Source: Leadbetterella sp.
Lineage (GTDB): Bacteria; Bacteroidota; Bacteroidia; Cytophagales; Spirosomataceae
Length of the DNA stretch: 51,130 bases
Direction: 5' to 3'
Assembly (NCBI GenBank): GCA_021740125.1
Contig: JAIPAJ010000003.1
Coordinates: 1 to 51,130, forward strand
The translations under genes and the position numbers were made by a program. Below are positions 22,288 through 39,428 of this stretch, one piece after another (position 1 is the first letter of the stretch; each line of letters begins with the position of its first letter). The notes beneath the pieces are model-generated. The model was given only the letters and a program-made list of their open reading frames with translations. It did not search any database and was not told the origin of the DNA.

Positions 22288-22500
22288 TCAAAATTTGGTA
22301 GTTTCTTTGCCGTCCATTTCGGTCATTTCTATGTCCATCAGGAGCATGTCGGAGTGGTGATTGTTGAGCTTGTCTAAGGCATCATGACCACCATTGGCTT
22401 TAAACAACACCTGCACTTCGTCAAAAATCGAGAGATTCTGAGTAATATTTCGCAGCAAAGTTGGGTTATCATGAAAGAGGCCAATGGTAATCATGGGCAT
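22288..22500 (-). pseudogene. Truncated response-regulator receiver domain
   Basis: Seventy residues match the first two thirds of a receiver domain: MPMITIGLFHDNPTLLRN with an altered acidic pair, then phosphoacceptor-type Asp56 in MLLMDIEMTEMDG. The frame stops there. The rest of the receiver and any HTH domain are missing. Together with the kinase remnant at 21761-22025 it marks a lost two-component system. Confidence 0.7.
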
Positions 22501-22588: not shown

Positions 22589-23965
22589 TTAATCTATTTT
22601 CGAAAAATACACAGATGGACTACTTGTACTAAATCCTTGACCAACAAAATAGACCGATACGGTCATTACCATACTTTTATTGCCAGAGGCGTCCCATGCT
22701 ACATCAATAAAATTAGTAAGGCTTCTTTCACTAGATGTAATTGCTGTAATATACCCATCATAATAAAAAAGGCCAGAGCTTGCGAAAGTATCTTTAGAGG
22801 CATTTTGAGAAAGCCCCTTTGTGAGCCATTTCCCATTTTTGTAAAAAAATCCAAAAGCCTCATTACTTTCTGATAAACCTCCTGCTTGAATCATGACCGC
22901 CATCTCGCCATTTGGTCCTTGGTCTGCCTGAAAACTTTGGATTTTGACCCCTGTCTTTTGAATTGAAGCCAAAACATTAGTTTTTCTAGTTGAAACATCG
23001 TAATCCCAGATTTGCTCGCTTTCTAAAGTAGAAGCAGGGGGCCTAAAAATGATGTGGTCGTTTCCTTTTTCATCATAAAGGAGTTCAGCTGGATTATTAA
23101 ATGTGTTTCCTTCTTTATACAATGGATATTGATATGCGATTTCAGCCTTTGTTCCATTGTATAGAAAAAGAGTTTTGACACCAGACTCGGCAACAAATTC
23201 ACCAATAAAATGTAGTTTATTTTGCTTATCATAATATCCGCTAAGATTTTGAAATCCCAAATTGGGAGGTGCCCCACCTGGATATTTGGGTTTGCCCGGA
23301 GTAGAATAGTCTTTAAAATTTCCAAAACTGCCCCCATTTAATGTGGCTTCTGTGATTAAATCGGCATAGTACCAATAAGTATTCCAGCGGTTTTTTAAGG
23401 TTTCGTCACTGACTTGTGACCACACCACGTGTACCTTGCCAGCATTATCAAGTGTGGCAAACCACGAAACCTGCATGAGTTCATTGCTTGCCAGCATAAT
23501 GGGTTTGCCAAAAGTGTTTCCGTTTAAAACAGCATAAAAAAGTGTGCCCATATTATAGCCTCCAGTACCTTCTAGCGTAGTTTCAGCTATTGGATATTGA
23601 GCCTTATCACTGCTTCCAAAGCGTTTCCAAATGGCGTAAATGGTACCGCTTCCATCTTGAATCAATTTCGGAATAGCAGAACCATTTCCTGTACCGTCAT
23701 TGCTAACAGTTACTGGTTTAGACCAAGATTTGCCTTTATTGCTTGATGAGCTATAATACACAAAAACTGGTTTGCCATAATCGAGGTTTTCTAGAAAAAC
23801 CGCATGGTAGGTTCCGTCTTTAGCAATGAGTAAATCACAGTAGCCTGCTTTTTCAAATTGGGAGAGCTTTATCTCTTCTACACCAGATGCTTTAATGGCG
23901 TCTGGCAAAAGTTTGCAGCTAGATAAAGTAATAATAATACATATGAAAGCAATGAATTTTCCCAT
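22589..23965 (-). CDS. Lipoprotein with sialidase-like (BNR) propeller
   Basis: This 458-residue protein has a lipoprotein signal (lipobox Leu-Ser-Ser-Cys17). The mature part has propeller-like repeats, with one Asp-box-like motif SSNKGKSWSKP near residue 82 and recurring patterns such as GTIYAIWKRFG, GKVHVVWSQVS and NKLHFIGEF. Propellers of this type bind or cleave surface sugars; I see no complete sialidase Arg triad, so a binding or structural role is as likely. It is the last gene of the minus-strand lipoprotein run that starts at 26640, 37 bases after the YD-like gene. The 17-bp element upstream of 26640 probably controls it. Confidence 0.7.
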   Translation of the reverse strand: MGKFIAFICIIITLSSCKLLPDAIKASGVEEIKLSQFEKAGYCDLLIAKDGTYHAVFLENLDYGKPVFVYYSSSSNKGKSWSKPVTVSNDGTGNGSAIPKLIQDGSGTIYAIWKRFGSSDKAQYPIAETTLEGTGGYNMGTLFYAVLNGNTFGKPIMLASNELMQVSWFATLDNAGKVHVVWSQVSDETLKNRWNTYWYYADLITEATLNGGSFGNFKDYSTPGKPKYPGGAPPNLGFQNLSGYYDKQNKLHFIGEFVAESGVKTLFLYNGTKAEIAYQYPLYKEGNTFNNPAELLYDEKGNDHIIFRPPASTLESEQIWDYDVSTRKTNVLASIQKTGVKIQSFQADQGPNGEMAVMIQAGGLSESNEAFGFFYKNGKWLTKGLSQNASKDTFASSGLFYYDGYITAITSSERSLTNFIDVAWDASGNKSMVMTVSVYFVGQGFSTSSPSVYFSKID

Positions 23966-24002: not shown

Positions 24003-24809
24003 TTATTTATAAGATCTTGGCTGAGAGATATTGTAATTTCGGCAGTCGTAAACTATGTCTTTGTAGATTATATCTAACACACCGTCCCATTTTTCAGTTA
24101 CTTTAGTAGGATAACCCTCAGCATTAAATTCCCTTTCCCATTCTTGAGTGGTAACCACTTTACCCGTGTTGTCAGTTACTACTTTTTTTGTAGGTAAATT
24201 TGCATTGATTTTACCATAAAAATTAGTAAAACCCTGAACGTGGTAATACCTTAAATTTATCAATTCTTTTTTAGATAGATCATAAGTAATAGTCACTTTA
24301 TCGCCTTTTACTTTCTCAATATAAGATTCTAAATTTTTGGCAGAATTATATGTACAAATTTCATCGAATACTAAATCTGACGTTCCAACCGTAATGCCTT
24401 TATACTCCAGTGGATAGTCCTCAGAGTTGTAGGTTATGTATTCCACGTATATTTCATCATAATAAAAATTGGTAAAATCATGTGTCCATTCTGTGGCATA
24501 GCCTTTTGAGTTTAGTTTTATTTTATCAACTCGCTCAGAAACTTCACCATCTGTCCATTGGTATGTTAATGTCAATTCAGAAAAGTTGCCATTATAATTG
24601 AATGATAGGCGACCGTTATAGGTTGAATCATCAGAATAGGAAACATCAATATAATCGACCAGATTGTTTGCTCTATATTTTACGATCATGGTTTCATCAT
24701 AATTCCATGCTGGATAGGAAGAAGTAATAGCTTTAAACTTTCCACAACCCTTGTCGACTGCAGCAACTTTTGCATTTTTTTGAGAAAAATTACCCTTATT
24801 AAAATCCAT
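24003..24809 (-). CDS. YD-like repeat protein, probably the 3' part of a frameshifted lipoprotein gene
   Basis: This 268-residue frame has no signal peptide. Its strands (LVDYIDVSYSDD, GRLSFNYNGNFSELTLTYQW, INLRYYHVQGF) follow the pattern of the intact lipoprotein at 29698-30528 (LLKFEYNAAGNLLKTI). Its ATG at 24809 overlaps by 11 bases the end of a 70-codon frame that carries a lipoprotein signal and no folded domain. The frames differ by one base, so a single-base indel near 24810-24860 would join them into a normal lipoprotein. True overlapping genes are the alternative. It belongs to the minus-strand lipoprotein operon. Confidence 0.6.
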   Translation of the reverse strand: MDFNKGNFSQKNAKVAAVDKGCGKFKAITSSYPAWNYDETMIVKYRANNLVDYIDVSYSDDSTYNGRLSFNYNGNFSELTLTYQWTDGEVSERVDKIKLNSKGYATEWTHDFTNFYYDEIYVEYITYNSEDYPLEYKGITVGTSDLVFDEICTYNSAKNLESYIEKVKGDKVTITYDLSKKELINLRYYHVQGFTNFYGKINANLPTKKVVTDNTGKVVTTQEWEREFNAEGYPTKVTEKWDGVLDIIYKDIVYDCRNYNISQPRSYK

Positions 24810-25011
24810 AATTGGAGTTTCTTTTCTTAGGTTTCCTTTTCTCTTCTTCCAATTTTATTCTAAAAAAACTAGCTTCGCTTGTATGTTTTGTTGGCAAAAT
24901 TGAGTTTTCAATTAATTGTTTATTATCTACTTGAATATCCGTTTTTTGACACGCAATAATTGTCAAGAAAAGTGAAAAAGATAAGCATATTAATTTTAAT
25001 ATATTTTTCAT
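24799..25011 (-). CDS. Lipoprotein signal plus linker (70 aa), probable 5' part of the split gene
   Basis: The frame has a clear lipoprotein signal (MKNILKLICLSFSLFLTIIAC) and then CQKTDIQVDN, followed by a Lys/Glu-rich tail ending in KRNSNYGF. No domain is present. It starts 6 bases after the collagen-like gene upstream and ends within the start of the 268-residue frame. It reads best as the export signal of that protein separated by a one-base frameshift. Confidence 0.55.
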   Translation of the reverse strand: MKNILKLICLSFSLFLTIIACQKTDIQVDNKQLIENSILPTKHTSEASFFRIKLEEEKRKPKKRNSNYGF

Positions 25012-26088: not shown

Positions 26089-26640
26089 TTAATCGTTTAG
26101 ATTTAATACTTTTTTCACTTCATCATAGTCTGCCCAATTTACCTGAGCCATTCGTCCTGCTTTGGCGGGAGGAACGATTATGTATCTGACTTTGATGTTC
26201 CAATCTTCAAGGTTAGGGTTAATAAACTCTGCTTTTTTGAAGTTTAGTTCATAGTCTAATGAGCCTAAACTAGCTTTGTAAGTAAACAGATAAGTATTGG
26301 TTTCGTCGGCTAATGATATCACCGCTGAACTCTCGTCTTCTGGAAGAGGGCGATAATAAGCAAGGATAAGACCCTGATCTAGAATGTTTTGAGTCAAAAT
26401 TGCTTCAGATTGTGTGTAAACAGCTTTCGTTCCCGTGAGTTTCCATTGGATGGATTTGATTTCTTTCCACTCTGAAATGAATCCACTAAATGCTCCTTTG
26501 TCACCCGTTGGGCCTTTGTCTCCCTTTTCACCTGTTGCTCCTGCAGCACCTTGTGGCCCGAGATCACCTATTGGTGCTTCACATCCCATAATACTTAAAA
26601 AAGTGAACAGAATGAAGACGTTTAATAATTTTGTTTTCAT
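26089..26640 (-). CDS. Collagen-like lipoprotein, first gene of the lipoprotein operon
   Basis: This 183-residue lipoprotein has its lipobox at Met-Gly-Cys20 and then CEAPIGDLGPQGAAGATG and further Gly-x-y triplets to about residue 50. The C-terminal domain ends VNWADYDEVKKVLNLND, matching the paralogue at 25018-25569. As the first gene behind the 17-bp element and GAnnTTTG box at 26665-26737, it leads a run of six minus-strand lipoprotein frames to 22589 with gaps of 5, 31, 6, -11 and 37 bases. Confidence 0.8.
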   Translation of the reverse strand: MKTKLLNVFILFTFLSIMGCEAPIGDLGPQGAAGATGEKGDKGPTGDKGAFSGFISEWKEIKSIQWKLTGTKAVYTQSEAILTQNILDQGLILAYYRPLPEDESSAVISLADETNTYLFTYKASLGSLDYELNFKKAEFINPNLEDWNIKVRYIIVPPAKAGRMAQVNWADYDEVKKVLNLND

Positions 26641-26664: not shown

Positions 26665-26767
26665 CAAAACTCTATAAAATTCTAAAGAAGAAAATCATCC
26701 AAAAAAGGTATTTTTTTATCTACCACAAAAGGTGTAGTTTTTTTGTGATGAGAAAAGGGTATTTTTG
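26665..26767. promoter_or_regulatory. Divergent promoter with 17-bp element, copy 1
   Basis: The element TACCACAAAAGGTGTAG lies at 26721-26737 (CTACACCTTTTGTGGTA on the minus strand). Toward the minus-strand lipoprotein operon, GAGTTTTG (26672-26665) follows after exactly 48 bases, with GGATGATT at offset 21-28. Toward the plus-strand histidine kinase gene, TATTTTTG (26760-26767), an exact TAnnTTTG box, follows after 22 bases. The element is a candidate activator site for both directions. Confidence 0.7.
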
Positions 26768-26788
26768 GGAATGTATTATTCTTTTGTG

Positions 26789-28639
26789 ATGAGAAAAACA
26801 CTTCTACTTTTTCTTTTGATTTCCATTGTTTCTAAAGCTCAACTTAAAAAAAGTGAAGTGTACTTTTATATTGATACTACATCAAGAAAGGAACTAAAAC
26901 ATATAACAGGCAACCAACAATTTAAAAAAGCAAGAAACAACATTCCTAGTGTAGGTATAAATCGTTTTCCTGTTTGGACTAAGATGACTGTTAAAAATAC
27001 CTCTAAAGATCCACAAAATCTTTATGCACAAATTTTGATTCCAATCATGGATTCAGTACAATATTTTGTAGTAAAAAATAATACTCTGCTCTCCAAATCT
27101 GATAAAATGGGTTGGTGGGCTGTTTTAAAAAACAAAAATTCGCCCAATCCAAATAACTCTTACATTTTTAGCATAAAAGGATTGGAAACGATTGAAATCT
27201 ATGCAAAAATCTTAAAGACTCATGGCACGGTAAGAATACCTCTTCAAGTCGAAATAGAAAAAGATCACTTCAAAGAAATGACCAAAAAAAGTGAGTTTTG
27301 GGGATGGTTTCTTGGGATGGGCTTTGTGGTCATATTCTTGAATTTATTTCTTTATTCTTTGGTAAAAGAAAAGGTCTATTTATTCTATTCACTCTATGTG
27401 TTTTGTCAGATTTTCAATCTCGATAGCAGCGAGGGCGTACATTCAAGCTTATATATGAACGGTCTGTTAAGTATTTCGGGTAGAAGTGTATATTATTTTT
27501 CAATGACCTTATTGATTATTTCAAGTATTTTATTCGTTAAATCTTATCTTAAAATAAAAGAACTACAACCGAAAATATTCTCTAAAGTATTCTCTTTTTT
27601 GATTTCTGTAGGTTGTATCTATGTCCTACTATTGGCTACCCCTGAATCAATAATGGATTTAATTACTACCCAAAAGGTGTTTATTTGGGTTTTCTTTGCT
27701 TGGTTTTTTGTATCTTTCATTTTCGGATTTTTTGTGATTTTTTACGCTATTATTAAAAATTTAGAACGAAAAACTGCCTTTTTGTATTTAATAGCGGGGG
27801 TACCCCTTTTTTTGGTCGGAATTTCACAAATGTTAGGAAACATCACAGTATTGCCTGTTGAATCGTCAGCACAAAGAAGTTATATTTTAATACCCGCAAT
27901 AATTTTTGAGATACTTGTGCTATGCTGGTGGTTGGCAATTAGATTTAAAATGTATTCTGATGATCGTAAAAATCTTTTACTTGAACGAAATAAACATCAA
28001 CAAATAGTCCTAGAGACCGGGACTAAATTTCAAAATCAAGAGAGAAATAGAATGGCAAAAGAACTGCATGATGGAGTCGGAATAGATATTTCTATAATTA
28101 AAATGAAATTAGAGGCTATAAATTTAGATTTAATAAAAAAAGGCCAAACCACTGAAACACATGAAATTGAAGATACCATAAAAAGCATTGATAATGTCGT
28201 CACCGAAATCAGAAATTTTTCACATAATCTTGTCCCTCCTGATTTAGAAAACAATGGTTTAGTGCATGTTTTACAAAATTTAATTCATAACCTGCAAAAA
28301 GTGATCCGAGCAGTTGAAATAAATTTTACTACCAACATAAAAACCAAAATACCAATTGAAATTTCACACAATATGTTTTTTATCGCAAAAGAGCTTATGA
28401 ATAATGCCATCAATCATGCAAGTTCATCAATAATAGACATTGAGTTAATGGAGTATCCATCGCGATTCGAACTGTGCGTCTCAGATAATGGCAAACAATA
28501 TGATTTCAATTCAGCAATAAAAAAAGGGGGATTTGGTCTAAGAAGTATTCAGTCCAGAGTCGAACTATTAAATGGGACTTTTGAAGTAATCGCAAAAAAG
28601 CCTATGGGTAGTTTTCATCAAATTATTATTCCAAAATAG
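26789..28639 (+). CDS. 7TMR-DISM sensor histidine kinase
   Basis: I place the start at ATG 26789 (MRKTLLLFLLISIVSKAQ, a signal peptide; 616 aa). An extracellular 7TMR-DISMED2-type beta domain spans about 25-170 (WTKMTVKNTSKDPQNLYAQI), followed by seven transmembrane helices (about 175-395). A HisKA_3 box has His427 in KELHDGVGIDISIIKMKLEA, and the HATPase_c domain includes KELMNNAINHA, VSDNG and GGFGLRSIQSRV. The dimerisation segment is nearly identical to that of the kinase at 33543-35408. It should sense an extracellular ligand and phosphorylate a LuxR-type regulator, probably the one at 28846-29481. Confidence 0.92.
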   Translation: MRKTLLLFLLISIVSKAQLKKSEVYFYIDTTSRKELKHITGNQQFKKARNNIPSVGINRFPVWTKMTVKNTSKDPQNLYAQILIPIMDSVQYFVVKNNTLLSKSDKMGWWAVLKNKNSPNPNNSYIFSIKGLETIEIYAKILKTHGTVRIPLQVEIEKDHFKEMTKKSEFWGWFLGMGFVVIFLNLFLYSLVKEKVYLFYSLYVFCQIFNLDSSEGVHSSLYMNGLLSISGRSVYYFSMTLLIISSILFVKSYLKIKELQPKIFSKVFSFLISVGCIYVLLLATPESIMDLITTQKVFIWVFFAWFFVSFIFGFFVIFYAIIKNLERKTAFLYLIAGVPLFLVGISQMLGNITVLPVESSAQRSYILIPAIIFEILVLCWWLAIRFKMYSDDRKNLLLERNKHQQIVLETGTKFQNQERNRMAKELHDGVGIDISIIKMKLEAINLDLIKKGQTTETHEIEDTIKSIDNVVTEIRNFSHNLVPPDLENNGLVHVLQNLIHNLQKVIRAVEINFTTNIKTKIPIEISHNMFFIAKELMNNAINHASSSIIDIELMEYPSRFELCVSDNGKQYDFNSAIKKGGFGLRSIQSRVELLNGTFEVIAKKPMGSFHQIIIPK

Positions 28640-28845
28640 CGGTTTTTTTACATTTCCAGTATGCGTTTCCATTTTGTAATTCTACTCGCCTAAAAACGAA
28701 ATTTTACAATTATTTATTCAAACAAAAGTAATTTTTAAGAAGCATTTTAAATTTATTATATTAAGGAATTTTTCATGAAAATGGTAAAATAGAATTTCAG
28801 CCTTAATTTTTGCAAAACATTAAACGCTACTTTTATGATTATTTT

Positions 28846-29481
28846 TCAAAATAATATCTCAGGATAATCTCCACAATATTTAACCAGCATTGCAGTGTTT
28901 TTGAGGTTAAGTTTTGACAAAACATTCTTTCGGTGTGTACTCACAGTAAGCGGGCTAAGAAACAATTTTTCGGCAATTGCGTCATTCGTTAATCCATCAA
29001 TAATTAATTTAATGACTTCTTTTTCACGCTTAGTAAGGTCGGGCACATAAGCCTGATTGGGTTTTCTCCCTGCCACACCCAATGCCAAGATTGTAGTGAT
29101 TTCGGGACTCATATAAATCTGACCATTCATGACCGTTTCAATAGCATTTTGCAATTCCGAAATTCCGAGATTTTTCACTACATAGCCATCCATTCCACTC
29201 CTTAGAGCTTTTTTTATGGTGTTATAATCATTCAGCATTGTTACAGCCACGATTTTAATGTTCGGAAAGTCTCTTTTGATAATTTCAGTTGCCTCTATCC
29301 CACCCATTTGCGGCATCTCTAAATCCATCAGAATCAAGTCTATTTTTTGATTTTGACAAAGCTCTATTACTTCCTTGCCATTTTTTGCATCGCCGACGAT
29401 GTGCACGTCTTCAATTCTCGAAACGAGCATACTTAGCCCTTCAATAAATAAAGTATGGTCGTCGGCGATGAGGAGATTCAT
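28846..29481 (-). CDS. LuxR/NarL-type response regulator
   Basis: This 211-residue regulator has acidic residues in LIADDHTLF, phosphoacceptor Asp53 in LILMDLEMPQMGG, and Lys near residue 103 in YVVKNLG. The HTH at about 147-205 reads LTKREKEVIKLIIDGLTND and LSPLTVSTHRKNVLSKL. It is convergent with the first 7TMR-DISM kinase and is the only complete regulator gene between 22.6 and 41 kb. I infer that it serves both 7TMR-DISM kinases and recognises the 17-bp element. The 206-base gap 28640-28845 shows no gene. Confidence 0.92.
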   Translation of the reverse strand: MNLLIADDHTLFIEGLSMLVSRIEDVHIVGDAKNGKEVIELCQNQKIDLILMDLEMPQMGGIEATEIIKRDFPNIKIVAVTMLNDYNTIKKALRSGMDGYVVKNLGISELQNAIETVMNGQIYMSPEITTILALGVAGRKPNQAYVPDLTKREKEVIKLIIDGLTNDAIAEKLFLSPLTVSTHRKNVLSKLNLKNTAMLVKYCGDYPEILF

Positions 29482-29532
29482 ATTATTTAATTAATGAATA
29501 TTTATAATACTAAAATTATACAAAACCCTGAC

Positions 29533-29682
29533 TTATCTTTTTCTAATTTCTGGTTTTGGAGGAAGCGTTTTTCCGCTGGCTACTCTTGCGTTCTTTTGGT
29601 TCCTATATTTTGGATGCGGTATAGCCATAGCCATTAAACCGAAAACCATTATGCAAATTACTAAACTTAGAATCTTTTTCAT
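29533..29682 (-). CDS. Small exported or membrane peptide (49 aa)
   Basis: The frame ATG...TAA encodes 49 residues: a signal-like stretch MKKILSLVICIMVFGLMAMA and then a short basic tail ending in KPEIRKR. It lies 15 bases after the YD-like lipoprotein gene and 51 bases before the response regulator gene, on their strand. The length and signal make it a plausible real small gene; no family is recognised. It could be a small exported factor linked to the signalling locus. Confidence 0.55.
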   Translation of the reverse strand: MKKILSLVICIMVFGLMAMAIPHPKYRNQKNARVASGKTLPPKPEIRKR

Positions 29683-29697
29683 GTTATTGATATTTTT

Positions 29698-30528
29698 TTA
29701 GTTACAGTTTGAGTAAGAGTATGTATTTGTGTACGTTTCTTTTTCCACAGCGTCTTTTATCACACTTTCCATCGTAAAATTGTTAGTGTTAAATTTTCTT
29801 GTAGTTGTAAAATCATAATATACACGTGTTTTATCTGTAAAGTCCGACCAATCTTCGTTATACTGAGTAAATGCTTTACCGGCAGTTGGTAAATAATTTT
29901 TAGGGACAAAATTAAATGGTACTGAATAAATGATGTCATTAGTAAAATAAGCAGGGTCAAAAGGATGTCCTTTTATCATAATTGCATGCGATTTCTTGCT
30001 TGGTTCTGTTTCATAACTATTCACTATAAATTGGTCTATGATTTTTCCACCCAAAGTGGCTTCGCTTTTCGAGAATACACCGTTAGGTCCATTGTATTCA
30101 AAAGTTGCCACCACACCATCACTTTTTTGAACAAATTTTGTGATTCGCTTTTGGGCATCCATCGTTACGTCAAACTGCTCATAAATTTCTTTTTTTTCAT
30201 CGGTAAAAATTACCTTTGTTAGCAATCCAGCGGCATCATATATATATTCGTCGATAAACCCTTCATCGTTTATGGTTTTTAATAAATTCCCAGCTGCATT
30301 ATATTCAAATTTCAGTAGTACTTCAACGATTTTATCCTCCGATTTAAAGGCTATAATTAAAGACTCAAGACGTTTATTAGCATCGAATTTATATACTTCA
30401 TAGCCACCATCATCATAGGATATTTTTTGAATGAGACAGTTTGTTTCCACCGGTTCTGCATCAGCATCTGGTTTTTGACAAGAGAGAGATAATGAAAGCA
30501 TTATCAAGACAAATAGTGTTTTTTTCAT
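29698..30528 (-). CDS. YD-repeat-like lipoprotein
   Basis: This 276-residue lipoprotein has its lipobox at Leu-Ser-Cys17, giving CQKPDADAEP. The mature part contains repeated Tyr-Asp-type strands (ISYDDGGYEVYKFDANKRLE, FEYNAAGNLLKTI, YIYDAAGLLTKVIF), typical of the wall-associated RHS/YD superfamily in its short Bacteroidota lipoprotein form. Function is unknown. It lies behind copy 2 of the 17-bp element and leads a likely transcript that includes the small peptide and the response regulator gene. Confidence 0.75.
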   Translation of the reverse strand: MKKTLFVLIMLSLSLSCQKPDADAEPVETNCLIQKISYDDGGYEVYKFDANKRLESLIIAFKSEDKIVEVLLKFEYNAAGNLLKTINDEGFIDEYIYDAAGLLTKVIFTDEKKEIYEQFDVTMDAQKRITKFVQKSDGVVATFEYNGPNGVFSKSEATLGGKIIDQFIVNSYETEPSKKSHAIMIKGHPFDPAYFTNDIIYSVPFNFVPKNYLPTAGKAFTQYNEDWSDFTDKTRVYYDFTTTRKFNTNNFTMESVIKDAVEKETYTNTYSYSNCN

Positions 30529-30556
30529 GGCTATAATCTTTTTTTGATTTATAATA

Positions 30557-30629
30557 CAAAGTTCTATATTTTGATAAAGTCCGGAATCAACCTAAAAGTG
30601 TATATTTATAAATACCACAAAAGGTGTAG
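30557..30629 (-). promoter_or_regulatory. Promoter with 17-bp element, copy 2
   Basis: On the minus strand CTACACCTTTTGTGGTA (30629-30613) is followed after exactly 48 bases by GAACTTTG (30564-30557), with GGTTGATT at offset 21-28. It drives the YD-like lipoprotein gene at 30528, and perhaps the response regulator gene beyond. No plus-strand gene faces it. Confidence 0.7.
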
Positions 30630-30690
30630 TGTATGGAAGAACTGAGATTTTTGGAATAAAATTTCGATTCGCATTGTTTAAGGCTTTAGG

Positions 30691-31626
30691 CTACTTTACT
30701 GTATTGAAGTAACGTATCCCAGTTTTTTCTAAGACGGTTTCTGCATTCAATATTTTCGAAAAATCAGGTACAACGGAGTAGAAAATAGCATCGCTAAAAT
30801 GAATTTCTTTAGAATTTAAAGATTCAAAGTTGAGCTTTTGCCAAAACTGGCACCCAGAAAGAAGTATTCTTTCCGCCGAAACATTGTCAATCTCAAAGTC
30901 ATCTCCGAATTTACTTCCTTCAAAAAAGACTCCCTTTTTGAAACGGCTAAAATTAAAACTCATTGGAGAAAACGTTTTTTGAAGTGAAAAGTCGATATTT
31001 TCTCGAAATTCCGCTTCACGAAATATCGCTTCTCCTTCCCACTTACAGGATTGAAAATATCCAATTTCGTTAAAAATCGATTTATTGAAATAGGTATTTT
31101 TTCTAAAAACTGCATTTTGAAAAAAAACTTTCCGTCCGAAAATGACTTTCGAAAAATTAGCATCATGTCCGATCACTGCGTTTTCTAAGTGTAGTTCACC
31201 ATGAAGTTTACTTTCTGCGAATACCAAAGAAGTGCCCACAATGACCCCATTGAGCAATATATCACCATAAAAAGTGCAATTATGAAAGCCCAAATTTGTT
31301 TCAAAATTCGATAGGATAACCATATTTTTGCCTTCGTCGTATCCTTTTATTTTACCTTTGAACTCACAATTCTGAAAATATATGGGACTATAAATTTTTA
31401 CTCTACACAGCAAATTTGATTCTTCATAAGCAGGAAGCTTTGTAAAATCAAGGTCTCCTTCGATACTTACATTTTGAAAAGAAACGGGCTTGTTCTTTCG
31501 TATTAATTTTATAATACTTTCTGCTTTTACCACAGGAAGCTTTTGAGCTATAACAGTGCTTTTACTCAAAAATAAAACTATAAATATTCCACAAAAAACC
31601 TTGGTGCTATTTTGGATTAATGTCAT
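30691..31626 (-). CDS. Exported pentapeptide-like repeat protein
   Basis: I place the start at ATG 31626 (MTLIQNSTKVFCGIFIVLFL, a signal peptide; 311 aa), overlapping the end of the peptidase gene by 20 bases; an in-frame ATG at 31659 would lack a good signal. The body consists of degenerate ~20-residue beta-helix rungs with alternating Phe/Asn at the centre (VSFQNVSIEGDLDF, FHNCTFYGDILLNG, FFQNAVFRKNTYFN, AIFREAEFRENIDF), close to pentapeptide-repeat proteins. The coupling to the C1 peptidase suggests a joint surface function, but none can be named. Confidence 0.7.
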   Translation of the reverse strand: MTLIQNSTKVFCGIFIVLFLSKSTVIAQKLPVVKAESIIKLIRKNKPVSFQNVSIEGDLDFTKLPAYEESNLLCRVKIYSPIYFQNCEFKGKIKGYDEGKNMVILSNFETNLGFHNCTFYGDILLNGVIVGTSLVFAESKLHGELHLENAVIGHDANFSKVIFGRKVFFQNAVFRKNTYFNKSIFNEIGYFQSCKWEGEAIFREAEFRENIDFSLQKTFSPMSFNFSRFKKGVFFEGSKFGDDFEIDNVSAERILLSGCQFWQKLNFESLNSKEIHFSDAIFYSVVPDFSKILNAETVLEKTGIRYFNTVK

Positions 31627-33292
31627 TGCTTGGGTCCATTTTTGCCTTGTTAAATGCATCTACTTTCTTTTGAAAATCACCATTTAGTTTATGGCTTTTG
31701 ATCATATCAAAAATTTCGTCTGTGGAGTAGGCGTTGGGGTTGATCTCGTTAGTAGCTGTGCGAAATTTTAATTTTTGCTCGCTATGTTTATTATATTTTG
31801 TGTTATTTTTAAAAGAAAAATCAGATCCGTTGGTGCTCAAACGAGCCCCTTGACCATTTTTAAATAAAATCGGGTTTTCTGTAGTATAAAAAAAGTTATC
31901 GTCTTCGTCATACTCTTTAAAAATGTCGCTGCCGTCAGCAATTAATATCAAATAGTAGTTGCCGTTTAAGGTTGTTGGCAAAGTATATTCAACTTGGATA
32001 TTCTCTGTGCCAAAAAGCATGTTTGCAAAATCACCGTTGGGGGGAATCGTTACATTCAAATCGCATGATTTTTCGCTGCAAACAAATTTATTTTCGGCCA
32101 CATTCTGATTTGTAAAATTATAATTGAAAATTATACCATAGTCATTGGCATTGTAGGCATTATAGTATATGTAGAATGCATTCCATGGCTTGTTAACACG
32201 AGCTGGTTGTGTACCATCATTATAAATATTAAATAACAATTTTCTTGAGGCTGGATTTTTGGTTGTTGAAAATGTAGAAATGTCTTCATCAACCCATGAA
32301 ACTAACTCTACGCCAGTAAGTTGTGAATTATTTACAGGGGGAGGGTTGCTAACTTCTGTACTTTTTATGGCAGCATCGCTCATGGTCAGTAAAACACCAT
32401 TGCCATTAGAATCTCTTTGTAAAAATGTATTAATAAAAAAGTTATAATCAACCCAAATAAAACCATTATTCCCCCAGTTGCTTCCCCAAGAATTTACTAC
32501 CTTAAATGCTCCGTTTACACCTTTTTTGTCGTCGTATCCAACAATGGCCATGCCATGATAGGCATGTTGACCAACCGAATTAAAAGTAGTATGCGAGGAA
32601 TAAACATTGGCCGAATTCCAAGACATAAAATTATCAGAAAGTCGAAAGCCAGCGATTACTGGAATTCTATTGGCTATTTGTTGTTTTATGGAAAACACGT
32701 CGTCATCAATAATTCTATAGTTTTTAATTTTATGCTTTCCTGCTTCGGTTGTCCATGAGGATTGTATAGAAGACGACAAACAAGACCCTAGATTGGAATA
32801 GGGAACTGTAGCCATGGTGGCTGCTCCTCTCAACTGTAGCATTTCCATGTTTATCAAATATGAACTTCCATCACAATCGGCCCCTTTAGAGTTGCCTTCG
32901 GGTAATGAGGTAAACAAATCTTTGGCACTTATTTGATTGCTTGACTTAGACAAATCTGATGCTTTGTACCCGAAAGAGAGGGCTTCAGTGGCAGTCTTTA
33001 CATAATAGCCTGCTGCCCAAGAAATACAAGTTCCATAACTTCCCTGACTTGCCACAGGCGGAAGTAGCTCAGACAAATCAAAAGAAGTCGGTAAATTTGT
33101 ATTTGAAGCAAAGCCAAACTTTACATTGTTGGGTACCTTTCCAAGGTTTTCGTTTCCTAACCATCCAAATCCAAAAGCTGGTTTGTCGTCATCAGCCTGA
33201 TCCGTCGGCGAAATAGTTTCGGCTAACTTACAAGAAGACATGAAAATCATGTTCACCATAAAAATGGCAATTAAAATCGACAGTTTTTTCAT
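31607..33292 (-). CDS. Papain-like (C1) cysteine peptidase, lipoprotein
   Basis: This 561-residue lipoprotein has its lipobox at Ser-Ser-Cys21. The C1 peptidase domain (about 68-285) has the oxyanion Gln83 and nucleophile Cys89 in QGSYGTCISWA, His246 in YHGMAIVGYDD, and Asn267 in NSWGSNWG; all four papain-type residues are present. The C-terminal ~270 residues include a beta-rich CARDB-like part (LVSWVDEDISTFSTTKNPAS, YYLILIADGSDIFKEYDEDD). It should cleave proteins at the outer membrane or outside. It lies behind copy 3 of the 17-bp element and is coupled to the pentapeptide-like gene. Confidence 0.88.
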   Translation of the reverse strand: MKKLSILIAIFMVNMIFMSSCKLAETISPTDQADDDKPAFGFGWLGNENLGKVPNNVKFGFASNTNLPTSFDLSELLPPVASQGSYGTCISWAAGYYVKTATEALSFGYKASDLSKSSNQISAKDLFTSLPEGNSKGADCDGSSYLINMEMLQLRGAATMATVPYSNLGSCLSSSIQSSWTTEAGKHKIKNYRIIDDDVFSIKQQIANRIPVIAGFRLSDNFMSWNSANVYSSHTTFNSVGQHAYHGMAIVGYDDKKGVNGAFKVVNSWGSNWGNNGFIWVDYNFFINTFLQRDSNGNGVLLTMSDAAIKSTEVSNPPPVNNSQLTGVELVSWVDEDISTFSTTKNPASRKLLFNIYNDGTQPARVNKPWNAFYIYYNAYNANDYGIIFNYNFTNQNVAENKFVCSEKSCDLNVTIPPNGDFANMLFGTENIQVEYTLPTTLNGNYYLILIADGSDIFKEYDEDDNFFYTTENPILFKNGQGARLSTNGSDFSFKNNTKYNKHSEQKLKFRTATNEINPNAYSTDEIFDMIKSHKLNGDFQKKVDAFNKAKMDPSNDINPK

Positions 33293-33355
33293 TAGATTAA
33301 TATTTATAAAGGGCTATTTTTAAACGTTTTACGAACATTGTTTTAATTTCATTTG

Positions 33356-33457
33356 CAAAACTCTTAAAAATTAAAACCCTATAAATCAACCAAAACCAGT
33401 ATTTTAAAAAATACCACAAAAGGTGTAGATAAGTAGAGCATTGAATGTGTAAATTTG
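33356..33457. promoter_or_regulatory. Divergent promoter with 17-bp element, copy 3
   Basis: TACCACAAAAGGTGTAG lies at 33412-33428. Toward the minus-strand peptidase gene, GAGTTTTG (33363-33356) follows after exactly 48 bases, with GGTTGATT at offset 21-28. Toward the plus-strand histidine kinase gene, TAAATTTG (33450-33457), an exact TAnnTTTG box, follows after 21 bases. The layout repeats that at 26665-26767. Confidence 0.7.
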
Positions 33458-33542: not shown

Positions 33543-35408
33543 ATGAAATCTTTCACTTCAATAGTAGTATTACTTTTTTTTACTTTACAGCCCCTTTTTG
33601 CTCAAAAAAGTCAAAACAATTCTGTTCTCTTTTTAAAAGATTCGAATTCCAATTTTAACATTGATAGCCTTGAATCGAAAAGTAAAGCGTTTTTAGTTTT
33701 TGAAAATAAGCGACTTAGCTATGGACATGAAAATAAACCCCATTGGCTCAAAATCTCAATAAGCAATAATGACACGATATCTCAAAAGAAATTGCTAGAA
33801 GTAGATTATGCTTTTTTAGAAGAGGTAAATCTTTTTATTGTTAAAAATGGTAAGGTAATCTTCAAATCTGATACGATTGGTTGGAAATATCCCTATCGAA
33901 ATCGCGTTTTTAAGCATTATAACCCGGTCTTTCCCATTACAATTGATGCCAAAAGCTCACAAACGGTTTATCTTCGAATTTTCCGTAGATACATTTCTTT
34001 AATACCTCCTATTAAAGTTTGGGACGAAGGCGATTTTTACCAAAACGAGATAACTCGTAAATTTATCTGGGGTGGTTTTGGAGGAATTTTGCTTTTAGCT
34101 TCTTCTTTTGGAATGATCCTTTTTCTTAGTTTGGGCAAGAGGCTTTATCTATTATATGCTCTTTATGTGACAATGGCACTATTGTATTCTTTAATAGACA
34201 GAGGGTTTTTTTTCGAATACTACAATGATGGTTTTTTGGGCTTCTATAAAAAAAACTTTCGTCAACTTTTAATGAATTTAAATATTCTGTTTACGCTACT
34301 TTATGTTAGAGCGTATGTATTTCCGAATTATAAACTTACTTTTTGGCTTCTTCAGATTTATAGATTTTGCATTCTTCTATGTTTTTTAGCCATATCCCTT
34401 TTATGGTTTGAAAAGTATTCAAGTGATCACCATATTATTATTTCTGATAAAGCCGCTCTTCTTTATCCTTTTGCATTTATCACCCCGGCTTTGTTTAGTT
34501 TTTATTTAGTTTTTTATAGTTATTTTAAAAAAATTGATGTGGTAGCTAGCAAATTCTATATGATTGGTGCATTACCATTGGTGCTTTTTACGGTTTTAAC
34601 AAATTTAAGGCATTACAATTTAATCCCAAATTATTGGTTTCTCGAAATTGAAGGTGCCATGCTGGCCTATATATTTGACGTTTTAATATTGGCTCTTGGA
34701 TTGGGCTATCGTTATAAAATCCTACGGGTCGAAAAGGAAAAATTGGTAGAAGAAAAAAAACAAAATCAACTTCTGGTTTATGAAAAAGGGCTAGAACTGC
34801 AAAATCAAGAGCGTAGCAGACTGGCCAAAGAGCTGCACGACGGTTTGGGAATCGACATCTCGATTATAAAAATGAAACTGGAAGCCCTGAGTATGGACTT
34901 TGAAAAAAAAGGAATCAAAGTCAAGGAGTTTTATGAAACTATTGCAAACCTCGACAACGTGGCAAGCAATGTCCGGAGTTTTTCACTTAATATTATGCCT
35001 CCAGATTTGAAAAAAAACGGCATTGCGATTGTCTTAGAAAACTTAGTTTATAGTCTACAAAAACTAAACGCCAACATTGAGATAAATTTTACAACCAATG
35101 TCACTGATAAACTCGATGATAAACTATCACAGAACTTATATTTTATAGCTAAAGAATTAATAAATAACGCCTTAAGGCATTCTAATGCTTCCATAATTGA
35201 TGTGGAACTGATGAAAGAAAACAACCAAACCGAGCTAAAAGTCTCCGACAACGGTATAGGTTATGATTTTGATATGGCTCTAAAAAAAGATGGTCTGGGT
35301 TTAGAAAGTATTAATTCAAGAGTAGCTTTAATGAATGCTCAAATAGAAATAACCAAAAAACCATTAAATGGCATTTCGCATAAAATAATACACCTTGACA
35401 AATTCTAA
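33543..35408 (+). CDS. 7TMR-DISM sensor histidine kinase (paralogue)
   Basis: I place the start at ATG 33543 (MKSFTSIVVLLFFTLQPLFAQ, a signal peptide; 621 aa); an upstream frame from 33465 adds 26 residues without clear sense. It has an extracellular DISMED2-type domain (about 25-180), seven membrane helices, a HisKA_3 box with His432 in KELHDGLGIDISIIKMKLEA, and HATPase_c (KELINNALRHS, VSDNGIGYDF, DGLGLESINSRV). It is paralogous to the kinase at 26789-28639, nearly identical around the phosphorylated His and divergent in the sensor. No regulator gene follows, so it probably shares the regulator at 28846-29481. Confidence 0.92.
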   Translation: MKSFTSIVVLLFFTLQPLFAQKSQNNSVLFLKDSNSNFNIDSLESKSKAFLVFENKRLSYGHENKPHWLKISISNNDTISQKKLLEVDYAFLEEVNLFIVKNGKVIFKSDTIGWKYPYRNRVFKHYNPVFPITIDAKSSQTVYLRIFRRYISLIPPIKVWDEGDFYQNEITRKFIWGGFGGILLLASSFGMILFLSLGKRLYLLYALYVTMALLYSLIDRGFFFEYYNDGFLGFYKKNFRQLLMNLNILFTLLYVRAYVFPNYKLTFWLLQIYRFCILLCFLAISLLWFEKYSSDHHIIISDKAALLYPFAFITPALFSFYLVFYSYFKKIDVVASKFYMIGALPLVLFTVLTNLRHYNLIPNYWFLEIEGAMLAYIFDVLILALGLGYRYKILRVEKEKLVEEKKQNQLLVYEKGLELQNQERSRLAKELHDGLGIDISIIKMKLEALSMDFEKKGIKVKEFYETIANLDNVASNVRSFSLNIMPPDLKKNGIAIVLENLVYSLQKLNANIEINFTTNVTDKLDDKLSQNLYFIAKELINNALRHSNASIIDVELMKENNQTELKVSDNGIGYDFDMALKKDGLGLESINSRVALMNAQIEITKKPLNGISHKIIHLDKF

Positions 35409-35656: not shown

Positions 35657-37489
35657 ATGAAAAAAAACGTCTTCTTCCTGATTCTGTATGTCTTTTTATC
35701 TAATATAACTAAAGCCCAAATCTACGTTTTAGAAACTCAAGGACAGGTTTCTGTTAATGGAAAAACACTAAAAAAAGGAGATGAAGTTTTAGAAAAATCG
35801 TTACTAATTTTTGGAAAAGATAGTAAATTAAACCTCCTAACCCAAGGCGGATATATAAGCATTAATAGTAATATCCCTAATATAAACACCACAGAATTAG
35901 GCATTTTGATAAAAAACCAAGAGCTTTCAAAAAGTACATCTACCCGCTCTTTTTCGGAATCAGAAAATATACCATTAGAAAAGGAGCTAAGCAACATAAT
36001 GGATATTTTGGCAGGAAATGGCCAGTCATTTGAACAAAATTATGGCAATTACATAGAACCCTATCTGAAAAGCCGATTCGATGAAAATGCCGTAAAAAAA
36101 GCCTTTGATTTTTTACAAAACCAATTCGACAAAAGCCCCCCCACACTCACTGGTTTGATGAGCGACGAAGCTCAATATCAATCCATCCCACAAGTTTCAA
36201 GACTTGTTAACAGGTCTTACACAAGTCTGCCAGAGCGGTTTTCGTTGAAAGAATATTGCCCGAAACCCGGTTTACAACAATACAGCGACTGCGTAGGATG
36301 GTCTACCACTTACGCCGCCCGTACAATACTTTACGCCATCAGGAACAACATACAAAACAGACAAACCATTACCGCTGAGACCTTTGCACCATCGTTTACT
36401 TACAGTCAAATAAAATCAAGCCAAACCGAAGCTGCGTGTAAACAAGGCTCTTACATTCAAGATGCCGTCAAACTTATCAAAGATTTAGGATCCATCAAAA
36501 ACGTTGACTTTGAGTACAGCTGCTCCCCTATTATCGAAAATCAAGACGTAAGAATTGCATCTAAATTCAGAATCAAAAACTATAAACGTCTTTCGGGAGA
36601 TTACAATTCAGACCGCAGCCAAATGATGGAAAACATCAAAAAAAGTCTATCAGAAAAACGCCCCGTGGTGATTGCCATGGAAGTTTATGATTCGTTTCAA
36701 AGACCAAGTGCTTCGGCCACCAAAGGACTTTGGGAAGGCAAAAAGGGCAAAATGGTTAGCCGACACGCCATTACGGTGATTGGCTACGACGACACAAAAT
36801 ATGGAGGAGCATTTGAAATCATCAATAGTTGGGGTACGTTTTGGGGAAACGAGGGCTTTATGTGGCTTAAATACAAAGACTTTGCAACAGTAACCTACGA
36901 AGCCTATGAAATGGCTGATTATGAAGCCTCTACACCAAACAATACCAAGGCCGATTTGGCAGGAAGTTTTGAGGTAATATTAAACAATGGCAATAGTATG
37001 CCGGTGAGATTAAATAATTCTACAACCGAAACCGTAAACTACACCGCCTCCAAATCTTATAGCTCTGGTACGCAGTTTCGTTTGAGCTTTACCAACAACC
37101 AACCCGCTTATGTGTACTTAATCAGTTATGGTACCAACACCCAAAAAGTGAGTAATATCTTCCCTTTTGATGGCTATAGTGCTTATCTAGATTATTCCAA
37201 AAACGAAATAATGATACCCAATGAAGATTATTGGGTACAAATGGACAATCACATCGGTACGGATTATCTTTGTATATTGTATTCGAAAGAAGAATTAGAC
37301 ATCAAGGCTATAGCCAAACAAATGCAAAGGCAGTCGGGAAGTTTTGATGCCAAACTAAAGGCCGCCCTCCAAAACAAAATGGTAGAAAACAGAAGCATAA
37401 ACCTAGCCAAAGACAAGATAAGCTTTGATGCCAAACTCAACGGCAAAATGGTGATTCCGATTACGCTAGAAATAAAACATGTGAATTAA
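35657..37489 (+). CDS. Secreted papain-like (C1) peptidase with DUF4384-like C-terminus
   Basis: This 610-residue protein has a signal peptide (MKKNVFFLILYVFLSNITKAQ). An N-terminal FecR-like part (QIYVLETQGQVSVNGKTLKK) is followed by the C1 domain at about 188-410: Gln and Cys212 in QQYSDCVGWSTTYA, His370 in SRHAITVIGYDD, Asn390 in INSWGTFWG. The C-terminal region at about 445-555 (FRLSFTNNQPAYVYLISYG, IPNEDYWVQMDNHIG) looks like DUF4384. The TPR-caspase gene starts 14 bases downstream, so two cysteine peptidases of different clans form one operon. Substrates are unknown. Confidence 0.88.
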   Translation: MKKNVFFLILYVFLSNITKAQIYVLETQGQVSVNGKTLKKGDEVLEKSLLIFGKDSKLNLLTQGGYISINSNIPNINTTELGILIKNQELSKSTSTRSFSESENIPLEKELSNIMDILAGNGQSFEQNYGNYIEPYLKSRFDENAVKKAFDFLQNQFDKSPPTLTGLMSDEAQYQSIPQVSRLVNRSYTSLPERFSLKEYCPKPGLQQYSDCVGWSTTYAARTILYAIRNNIQNRQTITAETFAPSFTYSQIKSSQTEAACKQGSYIQDAVKLIKDLGSIKNVDFEYSCSPIIENQDVRIASKFRIKNYKRLSGDYNSDRSQMMENIKKSLSEKRPVVIAMEVYDSFQRPSASATKGLWEGKKGKMVSRHAITVIGYDDTKYGGAFEIINSWGTFWGNEGFMWLKYKDFATVTYEAYEMADYEASTPNNTKADLAGSFEVILNNGNSMPVRLNNSTTETVNYTASKSYSSGTQFRLSFTNNQPAYVYLISYGTNTQKVSNIFPFDGYSAYLDYSKNEIMIPNEDYWVQMDNHIGTDYLCILYSKEELDIKAIAKQMQRQSGSFDAKLKAALQNKMVENRSINLAKDKISFDAKLNGKMVIPITLEIKHVN

Positions 37490-37503
37490 AAACCATCAAT
37501 TCA

Positions 37504-37746
37504 ATGAAAACCAAACTATATATATTTATAATAATTGTACTGCCATTGCTTAGTTTTGGACAAAACTCTTACCAAAAAGGCGTTGAATATTACAAAAAAG
37601 CAGACTACAAAAATGCCCAGATAGCATTCGATGATGCCCTAGACGAAGACATTGAACCGGCATATAATACCCTAACTTACAGAGGATTGTGTAAATATAC
37701 CAAAAACAATACAACGAAGCTTACGAAGACTATAACCTTGCTGTAA
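37504..37746 (+). CDS. 5' part of a frameshifted TPR-caspase gene
   Basis: The frame encodes 80 residues: a signal peptide (MKTKLYIFIIIVLPLLSFGQ) and the first TPR (SYQKGVEYYKKADYKNAQIA). It then breaks down after CKYTKN. If the A5 run at 37702-37706 had six A, the frame would continue into the 37785-39428 frame as KKQYNEAYEDYNLAVK, an expected TPR sequence. So this is the N-terminus of the caspase-like protein, separated by a one-base deletion that may be a sequencing error, a mutation or slippage. Confidence 0.75.
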   Translation: MKTKLYIFIIIVLPLLSFGQNSYQKGVEYYKKADYKNAQIAFDDALDEDIEPAYNTLTYRGLCKYTKNNTTKLTKTITLL

Positions 37747-37784
37747 AAGACCTCAACAAACTCGGATACACCAAAATCGGAGAA

Positions 37785-39428
37785 ATGCCCGCCAATATTT
37801 TGAAAGCGTATGGTTTGACGCTTTATGACAGGGCTTTAGCCCAACACAAACGTGGCCAATACAACGAAGCTATAAAAGATTTCAACTTTGCTTTGATGTA
37901 TAAATACAGCCCCGGAGACTGCTACTATCAAATTGCCAATGCCTATTACGCACTTTCTGATTTTGGTAAAGCCGCTGAGAATTATACGCTCAGTATGCCC
38001 TATAAACCAACAGATTACAGTTTGTACTACTGGCGTGGAAATGCGTATTTGAGCGATGGAAAATGGAAACAAAGCGTTGCAGACTTCGACTATTATATCA
38101 AACAAAAGCCTAATGATCCTTACGGATACCATTACCGTGGTTTTTCTAAAATCATGTTGGACAACATCGATGGGGCAATAGAAGACACCCAAAAATCTAT
38201 CGACCTCAACATGAAAGACATCTATTTGGCTTTCAGAAACTTAGGTATGATATACATCAAATTGGAAGATTGTGAAAAAGCCAGAGAGAATTTTGAATAT
38301 GCCATTAAATTAAATTCAAATGATAATTTCAGCAAAAACAAACTCGAAACCTTAAGTGCGGATTGCGGCGAAACTGAAGAAGAGAAAGTGGTCATAAAAA
38401 ATACCCCTAAATATTCAAAACCGACCATCAGCTGGGTATATCCTACACAAGAAAGTATTGAAACTTCAGAAAATGTAGTAACCATAAAAGCCTGTGTTAA
38501 TAGTTCGGAAAAACCAACCATGAGTTTGTTTGCCGACGGCGTGGAGTTGACTTCAAGAGATTTCGTTATAGTACCCTCCAAACAACCCGACTGCCCATAT
38601 AGATTTGAAAAACAGGTAACTATATCATCTAACGCCAACCTTATCAACCTGAGATTTGTGGCTAAAAACTCTGGAGGAAGTGTGGAGTCAAGTAGAAAAA
38701 TATACAAAATAAAATCGCAAAATCCCGAGGCTGAAGAGCGGAGAATAGCCCTTTTAATAGGCAACGCAGCCTATAAATACAAGCCACTCAACAATACGCT
38801 GAACGACGTTGACGACATGGCCAAAAAACTTGAAGGTTTGGGTTTTAAGGTGATAAAACACAAAAACCTAAAAGCAGAAGAAATGAGTATGGCCTTCATA
38901 AAATTCGGTAGAGAGTTGGCCAATTACGATGTAGGCATGTTTTTCTATGCTGGCCACGGTTTGCAAAACGGAAGCGGCACCAATTTTCTGGTTCCCATAG
39001 ATGCCGAAGCAATAAAAAGCGACCAAGATTTCAATAAATATTGTGTAGAAGTGGACGAGCTTTTTGGACAAATGAAAAAAGCCAACTCAAAAGTAAACAT
39101 CATCATTTTGGATGCTTGTCGAGATAATCCGCTGGATGCTAGAAACACCACACGTGGCTCTGGCACAAGAGGTTTGTCTGCCCCCACGCAAAACCCGCAA
39201 GGCTCATTTATATTTTACGCTGCATCTGCAAACCAAACGGCCTTAGAGGGCGAAGGAAGCCGAAACGGTATTTTCACGGGAGAATTGCTGAAGTTTATTG
39301 ACAAACCCAACCTCAAGCTAGAGGAAGTAGTAAAAGAAACCTCAAAAGCTGTAAAACTCAAAACCAATGACCAGCAAAAACCCGCTTGGTACTCCGAGTT
39401 TGATGGAGATTTTTATTTTAGGCATTGA
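37785..39428 (+). CDS. TPR protein with caspase (C14) domain, 3' part of the frameshifted gene
   Basis: The frame is open from about 37695 and its first ATG is at 37785; 547 residues from there. Several TPRs (about 1-185) are followed by an Ig-like segment (205-310: TISWVYPTQESIETSENVVT) and a C14 caspase domain (about 318-547). The catalytic His391 is in FFYAGHGLQ and Cys445 in IILDACRDNP, both intact. Metacaspase-like proteins cleave after basic or acidic residues; the target is not known. The export signal is in the 5' fragment at 37504-37746, so an intact product would be secreted. The downstream genes are on the other strand. Confidence 0.85.
   Translation: MPANILKAYGLTLYDRALAQHKRGQYNEAIKDFNFALMYKYSPGDCYYQIANAYYALSDFGKAAENYTLSMPYKPTDYSLYYWRGNAYLSDGKWKQSVADFDYYIKQKPNDPYGYHYRGFSKIMLDNIDGAIEDTQKSIDLNMKDIYLAFRNLGMIYIKLEDCEKARENFEYAIKLNSNDNFSKNKLETLSADCGETEEEKVVIKNTPKYSKPTISWVYPTQESIETSENVVTIKACVNSSEKPTMSLFADGVELTSRDFVIVPSKQPDCPYRFEKQVTISSNANLINLRFVAKNSGGSVESSRKIYKIKSQNPEAEERRIALLIGNAAYKYKPLNNTLNDVDDMAKKLEGLGFKVIKHKNLKAEEMSMAFIKFGRELANYDVGMFFYAGHGLQNGSGTNFLVPIDAEAIKSDQDFNKYCVEVDELFGQMKKANSKVNIIILDACRDNPLDARNTTRGSGTRGLSAPTQNPQGSFIFYAASANQTALEGEGSRNGIFTGELLKFIDKPNLKLEEVVKETSKAVKLKTNDQQKPAWYSEFDGDFYFRH

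Follow-up and report, generated by a model that had tools for sequence, protein, structure and literature searches.

The stretch of DNA considered here, called the window throughout, comprises 51,130 nucleotides from Leadbetterella sp. and contains three copies of a candidate regulatory element set among genes for lipoproteins, two 7TMR-DISM sensor kinases, and a LuxR-type response regulator (Table 1). The 17-mer CTACACCTTTTGTGGTA, by which the element is recognized, occurs exactly three times in the window, always on the minus strand (26737-26721, 30629-30613, and 33428-33412), with no fourth copy in the window at up to three mismatches and an average of 0.12 matches in dinucleotide shuffles. 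In each case 48 bases separate the 17-mer from a GAnnTTTG box, and TAC and GGWTGATT occupy identical offsets within this spacer. Exact TAnnTTTG boxes lie on the kinase side, TATTTTTG (26760-26767) at 22 bases from copy 1 and TAAATTTG (33450-33457) at 21 bases from copy 3. These copies, spacings, offsets, and distances are those given in the original prediction made for this DNA, and all of them were reproduced.

In the window genome (3.74 Mb, 77% complete), the three window copies are the only 17-mer matches with 0 or 1 mismatch; three further matches carry two mismatches versus four for a reversed-pattern control, and the totals at up to three mismatches are 26 versus 26. The comparison set consisted of ten genomes of the genus Lacihabitans, including that of the window. 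Six of them encode an ortholog of the regulator, the other five being 81-98% identical to the window protein and the closest 98% identical. Around the regulator gene of these six genomes, 15 elements were gathered with five variants of a 16-mer that forms the core of the 17-mer: three in the window, five in G005, three in G001, two in G006, and one each in G004 and G009. All 15 align without gaps over about 72 bp, well beyond the 16-mer, with a majority layout of C, TACACCTTTTGKGGTA, six free positions, AAWATAC, three free positions, TTTWGGWTGATT, 20 free positions, and GAnnTTTG. The C flanking the 16-mer (26737 in element 1) is also invariant. Exceptions are one element with CA for GA, one in G009 with TTTA for TTTG (TTTG keeps the same offset in 14 of 15), and a weaker repeat, TACACCTTTTATAGTA, in the G005 element at 8612. 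Columns of the last spacer are mostly low in information, and the alignment indicates that spacing is kept while much of the remaining sequence drifts.

A profile of the 15 elements scored 59.6-72.2 bits on its own members, which match by construction, and revealed no sixteenth element among the best 150 first-look candidates scored in each of the ten genomes, the next match reaching 21.8 bits. The other five regulator-bearing genomes carry a 17-mer with 0 or 1 mismatch at the regulator locus, and the four genomes without an ortholog (G002, G003, G007, and G008) have only two-mismatch matches. Genome-wide dispersal of the motif was thus rejected, since matches with two or three mismatches are about as frequent as for the reversed control and the profile finds no full copy elsewhere among the candidates scored; the search of the genome and its relatives with one or two mismatches, which had been proposed as a check, returned full elements confined to the locus. 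It is also highly improbable that promoter duplication or a mobile repeat gave rise to the copies and that their spacing is a legacy of this origin without functional meaning. Some targets are indeed paralogous (the collagen-like lipoproteins, and the YD lipoproteins of G005), and the T tracts are simple sequence. Nevertheless, the 16-mer (distal site) together with the proximal block downstream of it is 67-100% identical between copies of one genome, compared with 18-49% for the 39 bp upstream and 18-61% for the stretches 3' of the box, and this low flank identity argues that the shared spacing does not stem from recent flank duplication. Furthermore, the downstream genes belong to unrelated families, the element is conserved across orthologs down to 81% regulator identity, and all 15 elements sit at one locus per genome.

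The core of the element is a 16-bp imperfect inverted repeat, TACACC-TTTT-GKGGTA, which is perfect in its 6-bp arms in a G001 copy (TACACCTTTTGGTGTA). E. coli NarL binds inverted heptamers separated by a 2-bp gap, as in the engineered example TACCCCTAAAGGGGTA from the passages of PMC4549865 on NarL sites, and the heptamer consensus given in the corresponding part of PMC4886647 is TACYYMT. A repeat of this 7-2-7 form, TAC-N10-GTA and 16 bp in total, is present in all 15 elements, which had been gathered by that 16-mer. The shared cis element of the original prediction is borne out by the 15 gap-free aligned copies in six genomes; it is genuine, conserved, and confined to the locus and, as judged from its sequence, a probable NarL-type operator.

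The spacer landmarks GGWTGATT and TAC, which do keep their fixed offsets, are probably not separate motifs as first described and would together form one degenerate second copy of the site, 26 bp downstream and near -42.5. The window block TAC-N3-TTTTGGTTGA lies 22 nt from GAnnTTTG, the same distance as that from repeat to TAnnTTTG at the related loci described below. When a test matrix built from seven distinct sites of other loci was scanned over the 15 elements, offset 0 ranked first on average and offset 26 second; 0 of 5000 column permutations reached the offset-26 value (P 0.0018 for any offset), the 15 rows being related. Promoter positions were estimated from Flavobacterium psychrophilum, for which the promoter passage of PMC9723704 places TAnnTTTG at -12 to -5. 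By this yardstick, the proximal and distal sites on the lipoprotein side would be centered at -42.5 and -68.5, a -33 TTG may overlap the proximal site, and the strong site at kinase promoters would be centered near -42.5 (or -43.5). The E. coli NarL sites of napF and yeaR, at -40/-49 and -38/-47 in the passages of PMC4549865 on these promoters, fall in the same zone. Lipoprotein-side -7 boxes are off-consensus in all 15 elements, with G as the first base in 14 and C in one and with TTTG kept in 14 of 15. TAnnTTTG, the Bacteroidota primary-sigma -7 box, is exact on the kinase side of six of six elements. The notable feature of this arrangement would be a rigid pair of strong distal and weak proximal sites, the strong one apparently being reused at -42.5 for the opposite gene.

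Use of the element in two directions, also proposed originally, is supported by the genome comparison: TAnnTTTG occurs 22 or 23 nt from the 16-mer in all six kinase-facing elements and within 90 nt on that side of none of the nine others. The six fall into two sets of orthologs, with kinase 2 represented by four genomes and kinase 1 by two, and count as two independent cases. The combined pattern CAAANNTAN{22,23}TACMMMWWWWKKKGTA was found at 11 places in eight of the ten genus genomes, with 0 for the reversed control. Nine of these places are at the window-type locus or at two related loci, and the remaining two (G002 and G003) stand before a small gene next to a LuxR-type regulator, its LytTR domain being recognized by Pfam in G002 and by eye in G003. 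The loci with a related regulator in G007 and G009 (41-43% identity) carry two repeats built like the 16-mer, flanked by a kinase gene on one side and by a divergently transcribed gene with an exported-protein start on the other; each repeat has an outward-facing TAnnTTTG at 22 or 23 nt. Including G135 and G201 from elsewhere in the family, four related loci place TACMMMWWWWKKKGTA repeats between a kinase and a divergent exported-start gene at 22-23 nt from TAnnTTTG. Those of G007 and G009 differ from the window locus in having a large kinase that, by sequence, shares only the HisKA_3-type motif, an unrelated partner gene, and no 26-bp tandem element.

The regulator contains an intact receiver (PF00072, 8.5e-27) and an intact LuxR-type helix-turn-helix (HTH) domain (PF00196, 1.2e-18), which is the NarL/FixJ-type composition. 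Among PDB sequences its best match is VraR (5hev, 2.4e-36), with NarL (1a04) at 7.1e-34, and by NCBIfam it is not a NarL ortholog (142.2 bits for the NarL equivalog versus a cut-off of 250). This best solved-structure match likens it to VraR/LiaR-type cell-envelope response regulators. The kinase type and targets of VraR/LiaR-type regulators differ from those of the window system. All six orthologs have the same recognition-helix stretch, SPLTVSTHRKNVLSKLNLKNTAMLVKYC. In each of the six genomes, a lipoprotein gene headed by an element precedes the regulator gene on its strand, and in four a 49-amino-acid open reading frame (ORF) lies between them; no TAnnTTTG or GAnnTTTG occurs on the regulator strand in the pre-regulator gap of these four, and the terminator scan revealed no minus-strand terminator in the window gap. 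The gene order and the co-occurrence of element and regulator support the earlier assignment of this LuxR-type protein as the likely binder, and it appears to be the best candidate for that role.

Both kinases contain 7TMR-DISM_7TM, DISMED2, and HisKA_3/HATPase regions with H, N, and G motifs, the HATPase_c match of kinase 1 (24.3 bits) falling just below the cut-off of 26.4. Their phosphoacceptor regions are 61% identical to each other, 38-48% identical to those of other-type kinases at the locus, and 22-36% identical to those of seven other kinases, a pattern that fits one shared partner. Additional kinase-regulator pairs are located a few kb beyond the locus. The element-adjacent kinases are two 7TMR-DISM proteins in the window and in G005, kinase 2 alone in G006, kinase 2 plus an other-type kinase in G001, and only that other-type kinase in G004 and G009. 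What is constant across the genus is therefore the regulator, the element, and the lipoproteins, while the kinases vary; a regulon including its own sensor kinases, as predicted, holds for the window but not for the module genus-wide.

Taken together, these data make it fairly probable that the element serves as operator for a small two-component regulon confined to this locus, with a tandem-site activator and positive feedback. Briefly, the 7TMR-DISM/HisKA_3 kinases would phosphorylate the adjacent NarL-family regulator, and the phosphorylated dimer would bind the 16-bp inverted repeat through two 7-bp half sites with a 2-bp gap. At the kinase promoters it would act directly from the strong site. 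At the lipoprotein promoters it would fill the strong distal copy first and the degenerate proximal copy, placed before the off-consensus GAnnTTTG box, next, and would then recruit RNA polymerase. Activation would raise the surface lipoproteins, the kinases, and, via read-through from element 2, the regulator itself. Of the shared activator site originally proposed, the sharing and the use in both directions are supported by comparison; activation, like regulator binding, autoregulation, and the signal, is what we infer. The same regulator and sites could alternatively serve repression, the -42.5 dimer blocking the kinase promoters and the tandem sites silencing the lipoprotein genes until a signal arrives. 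NarL both activates and represses, according to the same passages of PMC4549865, and no more than 22-23 nt lie between the end of the kinase-side site and the -7 box. Repression is nonetheless unlikely, as a strong site as far upstream as -68.5 suits activation and off-consensus -7 boxes at every lipoprotein promoter are expected of activator-dependent promoters.

Several findings weigh against the activator circuit. The half sites fit the TACYYMT consensus of that source passage only partly (by eye, TACACCT 6/7, TACCACA 5/7, and TACCCCA 6/7). The proximal site is weak, with a mean score of -0.3 at offset 26 versus 19.6 at offset 0, offset 24 outscores 26 in three of 15 elements (G006 11306, G004, and G009), and the relatedness of the 15 rows bears on the matrix test. 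In G006, a single 17-mer with one mismatch (C11) lies away from the locus, and it lacks the rest of the element. The pre-regulator gap of G004 and G009 holds TATTTTTG, such that the regulator may have its own promoter there. Each genus genome contains 20-66 matches to the regulator, and a paralog could therefore bind the sites. Very similar sites also occur near other LuxR-type regulators. On these grounds, a different regulator encoded elsewhere might be the binder and the 28846 protein a mere neighbor; this is rather improbable, given that, of the ten genomes scanned, only the six with the regulator yielded the full element, always at the regulator locus, and that G004 and G009 share little beyond the element, a collagen-like lipoprotein, the regulator, and a kinase.

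The promoter rule underlying the activator circuit also fares less well outside the genus. Among 200 family genomes, with gaps of 10-40 allowed, it gave 38 places in 31 genomes versus 19 for the control. Gaps of 22 or 23 account for 16 of the 38, and 11 of these 16 are within the genus; outside it the share is 5 of 25 (binomial P 0.02), or 5 of 18 after near-identical rows were collapsed by hand (P 0.005). One of these five lies inside a gene and is probably due to chance (G024). A gene for a LuxR-type regulator is located within about 3 kb of three others (G135, G201, and G056), and the last (G074) is about 0.7 kb from a LuxR-HTH-like match. Across the phylum, eight places in seven of 394 genomes (two of them in the window genome) were obtained versus five for the control, and one (L197) of the six loci outside the window genome has a regulator-like match within its 1.5-kb flanks. 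The rule was rejected at phylum level because eight places hardly exceed five, and the sequence counts support it weakly at most outside the genus. Similarly, of 26 collagen-like lipoprotein loci examined outside the genus, only three lie within 1.5 kb of a match resembling a kinase or regulator, and a site is present at one. If the rule holds (a 16-bp TAC...GTA repeat ending 22-23 nt before TAnnTTTG), the operators of other kinase-regulator pairs of the genus could be directly readable; the two related loci suggest that it extends within the genus, and the phylum-wide counts speak against stretching it further.

With respect to known systems, the kind of switch is already known from E. coli, and the local network is new as far as the searched literature goes. 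The earlier statement that no described system with this element was known thus fails for the kind, in view of the 7-2-7 geometry reported in the NarL passages of PMC4549865, and stands for the network. No description of the system was found in the open-license literature as judged by titles and listings, none of four exact 16-mers occurred there, and of two heptamer strings only TACYYMT matched. The window regulator belongs to the same receiver plus LuxR-HTH family as NarL. Compared with NarL, its half sites diverge from TACYYMT and 7TMR-DISM kinases take the place of NarX/NarQ; surface lipoprotein targets, the rigid strong-distal/weak-proximal pair 26 bp apart, and Bacteroidota -7 boxes also set it apart. 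NarL-related two-component systems, narHK/narRR, are already recognized in Cytophagales and Flavobacteriales in the relevant portion of PMC8199190, although the narHK kinases are of nitrate-sensor type and no operator is described there, the text containing neither "heptamer" nor "DNA binding". The probable operator, promoter geometry, and gene set of one such regulator were obtained here from sequence alone, and the sensors inside the regulon differ between species while the regulator and operator stay.

Table 1. Coordinates of predicted sites and genes at the element-bearing locus of the window.
Feature	Position	Strand	Basis
Element 1, distal strong site: 16-bp imperfect inverted repeat TACACCTTTTGTGGTA; also kinase-1-side site	26721..26736	-	alignment
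Element 1, probable degenerate proximal site: TACCTTTTTTGGATGA, 26 bp from distal site	26695..26710	-	alignment, matrix scan
Element 1, -7-like box: GAGTTTTG	26665..26672	-	alignment
Putative kinase 1 promoter, -7 box: TATTTTTG, 23 nt from 16-mer	26760..26767	+	pattern match
Element 2, distal strong site	30613..30628	-	alignment
Element 2, probable degenerate proximal site: TACACTTTTAGGTTGA	30587..30602	-	alignment, matrix scan
Element 2, -7-like box: GAACTTTG	30557..30564	-	alignment
Element 3, distal strong site; also kinase-2-side site	33412..33427	-	alignment
Element 3, probable degenerate proximal site: TACTGGTTTTGGTTGA	33386..33401	-	alignment, matrix scan
Element 3, -7-like box: GAGTTTTG	33356..33363	-	alignment
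Putative kinase 2 promoter, -7 box: TAAATTTG, 22 nt from 16-mer	33450..33457	+	pattern match
NarL-family response regulator (receiver + LuxR/GerE HTH), proposed site binder	28846..29481	-	Pfam, PDB-sequence matches, orthologs
Kinase 1: 7TMR-DISMED2, 7TMR-DISM_7TM, HisKA_3, weak HATPase (longest ORF from 26765; ATG at 26789 preferred)	26789..28639	+	Pfam
Kinase 2: 7TMR-DISMED2, 7TMR-DISM_7TM, HisKA_3, HATPase (longest ORF from 33465; ATG at 33543 preferred)	33543..35408	+	Pfam
Collagen-like lipoprotein, first gene after element 1	26089..26640	-	locus comparison, signal pattern
YD/RHS-repeat lipoprotein, first gene after element 2	29698..30528	-	PF05593, TIGR01643, signal pattern
49-amino-acid ORF, signal-peptide-like start, between YD lipoprotein and regulator	29533..29682	-	locus comparison
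Papain-family (C1) lipoprotein peptidase, first gene after element 3	31607..33292	-	PF00112, signal pattern
Pentapeptide-repeat protein, 3' of and overlapping C1 peptidase gene	30691..31659	-	PF13576
458-amino-acid lipoprotein, end of element-1 gene run	22589..23965	-	locus comparison

Lipoproteins as targets, another part of the original prediction, are supported by a lipoprotein-like signal on the first gene after all 15 elements: 14 by a simple pattern, and the fifteenth after an over-called start was moved, with a weaker SFAC box. These genes encode members of the collagen-like, YD/RHS-repeat, and C1 peptidase families, along with a 458-amino-acid protein that has no family match. The collagen-like lipoprotein after element 1 has no Pfam match and only weak collagen-like NCBIfam matches far below the cut-off, and same-strand genes follow it closely, to 22589. 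Its tail family is matched in 86 of 150 family genomes (E 1e-4); a role as a general kinase partner was rejected on the locus counts given above, the association outside the genus being occasional only. For the 458-amino-acid lipoprotein, no match was found in Pfam, PDB sequences, or NCBIfam, and in G005, G001, and G006 an element immediately precedes the gene for its ortholog. By eye only, it has the look of a BNR/Asp-box propeller.

The 49-amino-acid ORF starts with MKKILSLVICIMVFGLMAMAIPHPKYRNQKNARVASGKTLPPKPEIRKR and is present in four of the six genomes, with same-length counterparts in G005, G001, and G006; of the 21 bases that differ between the window and G001, 13 occupy third codon positions. 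A self-reinforcing peptide circuit can be imagined, in which the C1 lipoprotein peptidase would cut this exported peptide, the 7TMR-DISM kinases would sense the product, and the regulator would raise its own level along with those of peptide, peptidase, and sensors, different species having exchanged the sensors; such a scheme is very unlikely.

Aside from the regulon itself, a few neighboring features were recorded. Next to kinase 2, 35657-39428 (+) encodes a C1-type peptidase with DUF4384 and then a TPR plus caspase-like protein (NCBIfam caspase_w_EACC1, 65.3 bits, below the cut-off of 140), and G001 has homologs of these genes at a distance of about 12 kb from its kinase 2. The 70-amino-acid ORF at 22288-22500 (-) shows 84% identity over 69 residues to part of a 234-amino-acid response-regulator ORF of G001 and is apparently a truncated gene. 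At 24003-25011 (-), ORFs 24799-25011 (with a lipoprotein-like signal) and 24003-24809 overlap by 11 bases and may be either two genes or one frameshift-split gene. In G135, from another genus of the family (L192 2852-6589), a TACCACAAAAGGGGTA site, at 23 nt from TATCTTTG, has a divergent gene for a collagen-like lipoprotein related to that of G004 on one side and a 7TMR-DISM kinase with a LuxR regulator on the other. Finally, the palindromes TACCCCAAATGGGGTA / TACCCCATTTGGGGTA were observed in three genomes belonging to two genera (L189 4186-4201, L190 3940-3955, and L194 3917-3932), each time upstream of a small gene of LytTR type, with LytTR assigned by Pfam in L189 and L194 and a LuxR-type regulator within about 3 kb at each locus, and they perhaps mark another conserved regulatory cascade.

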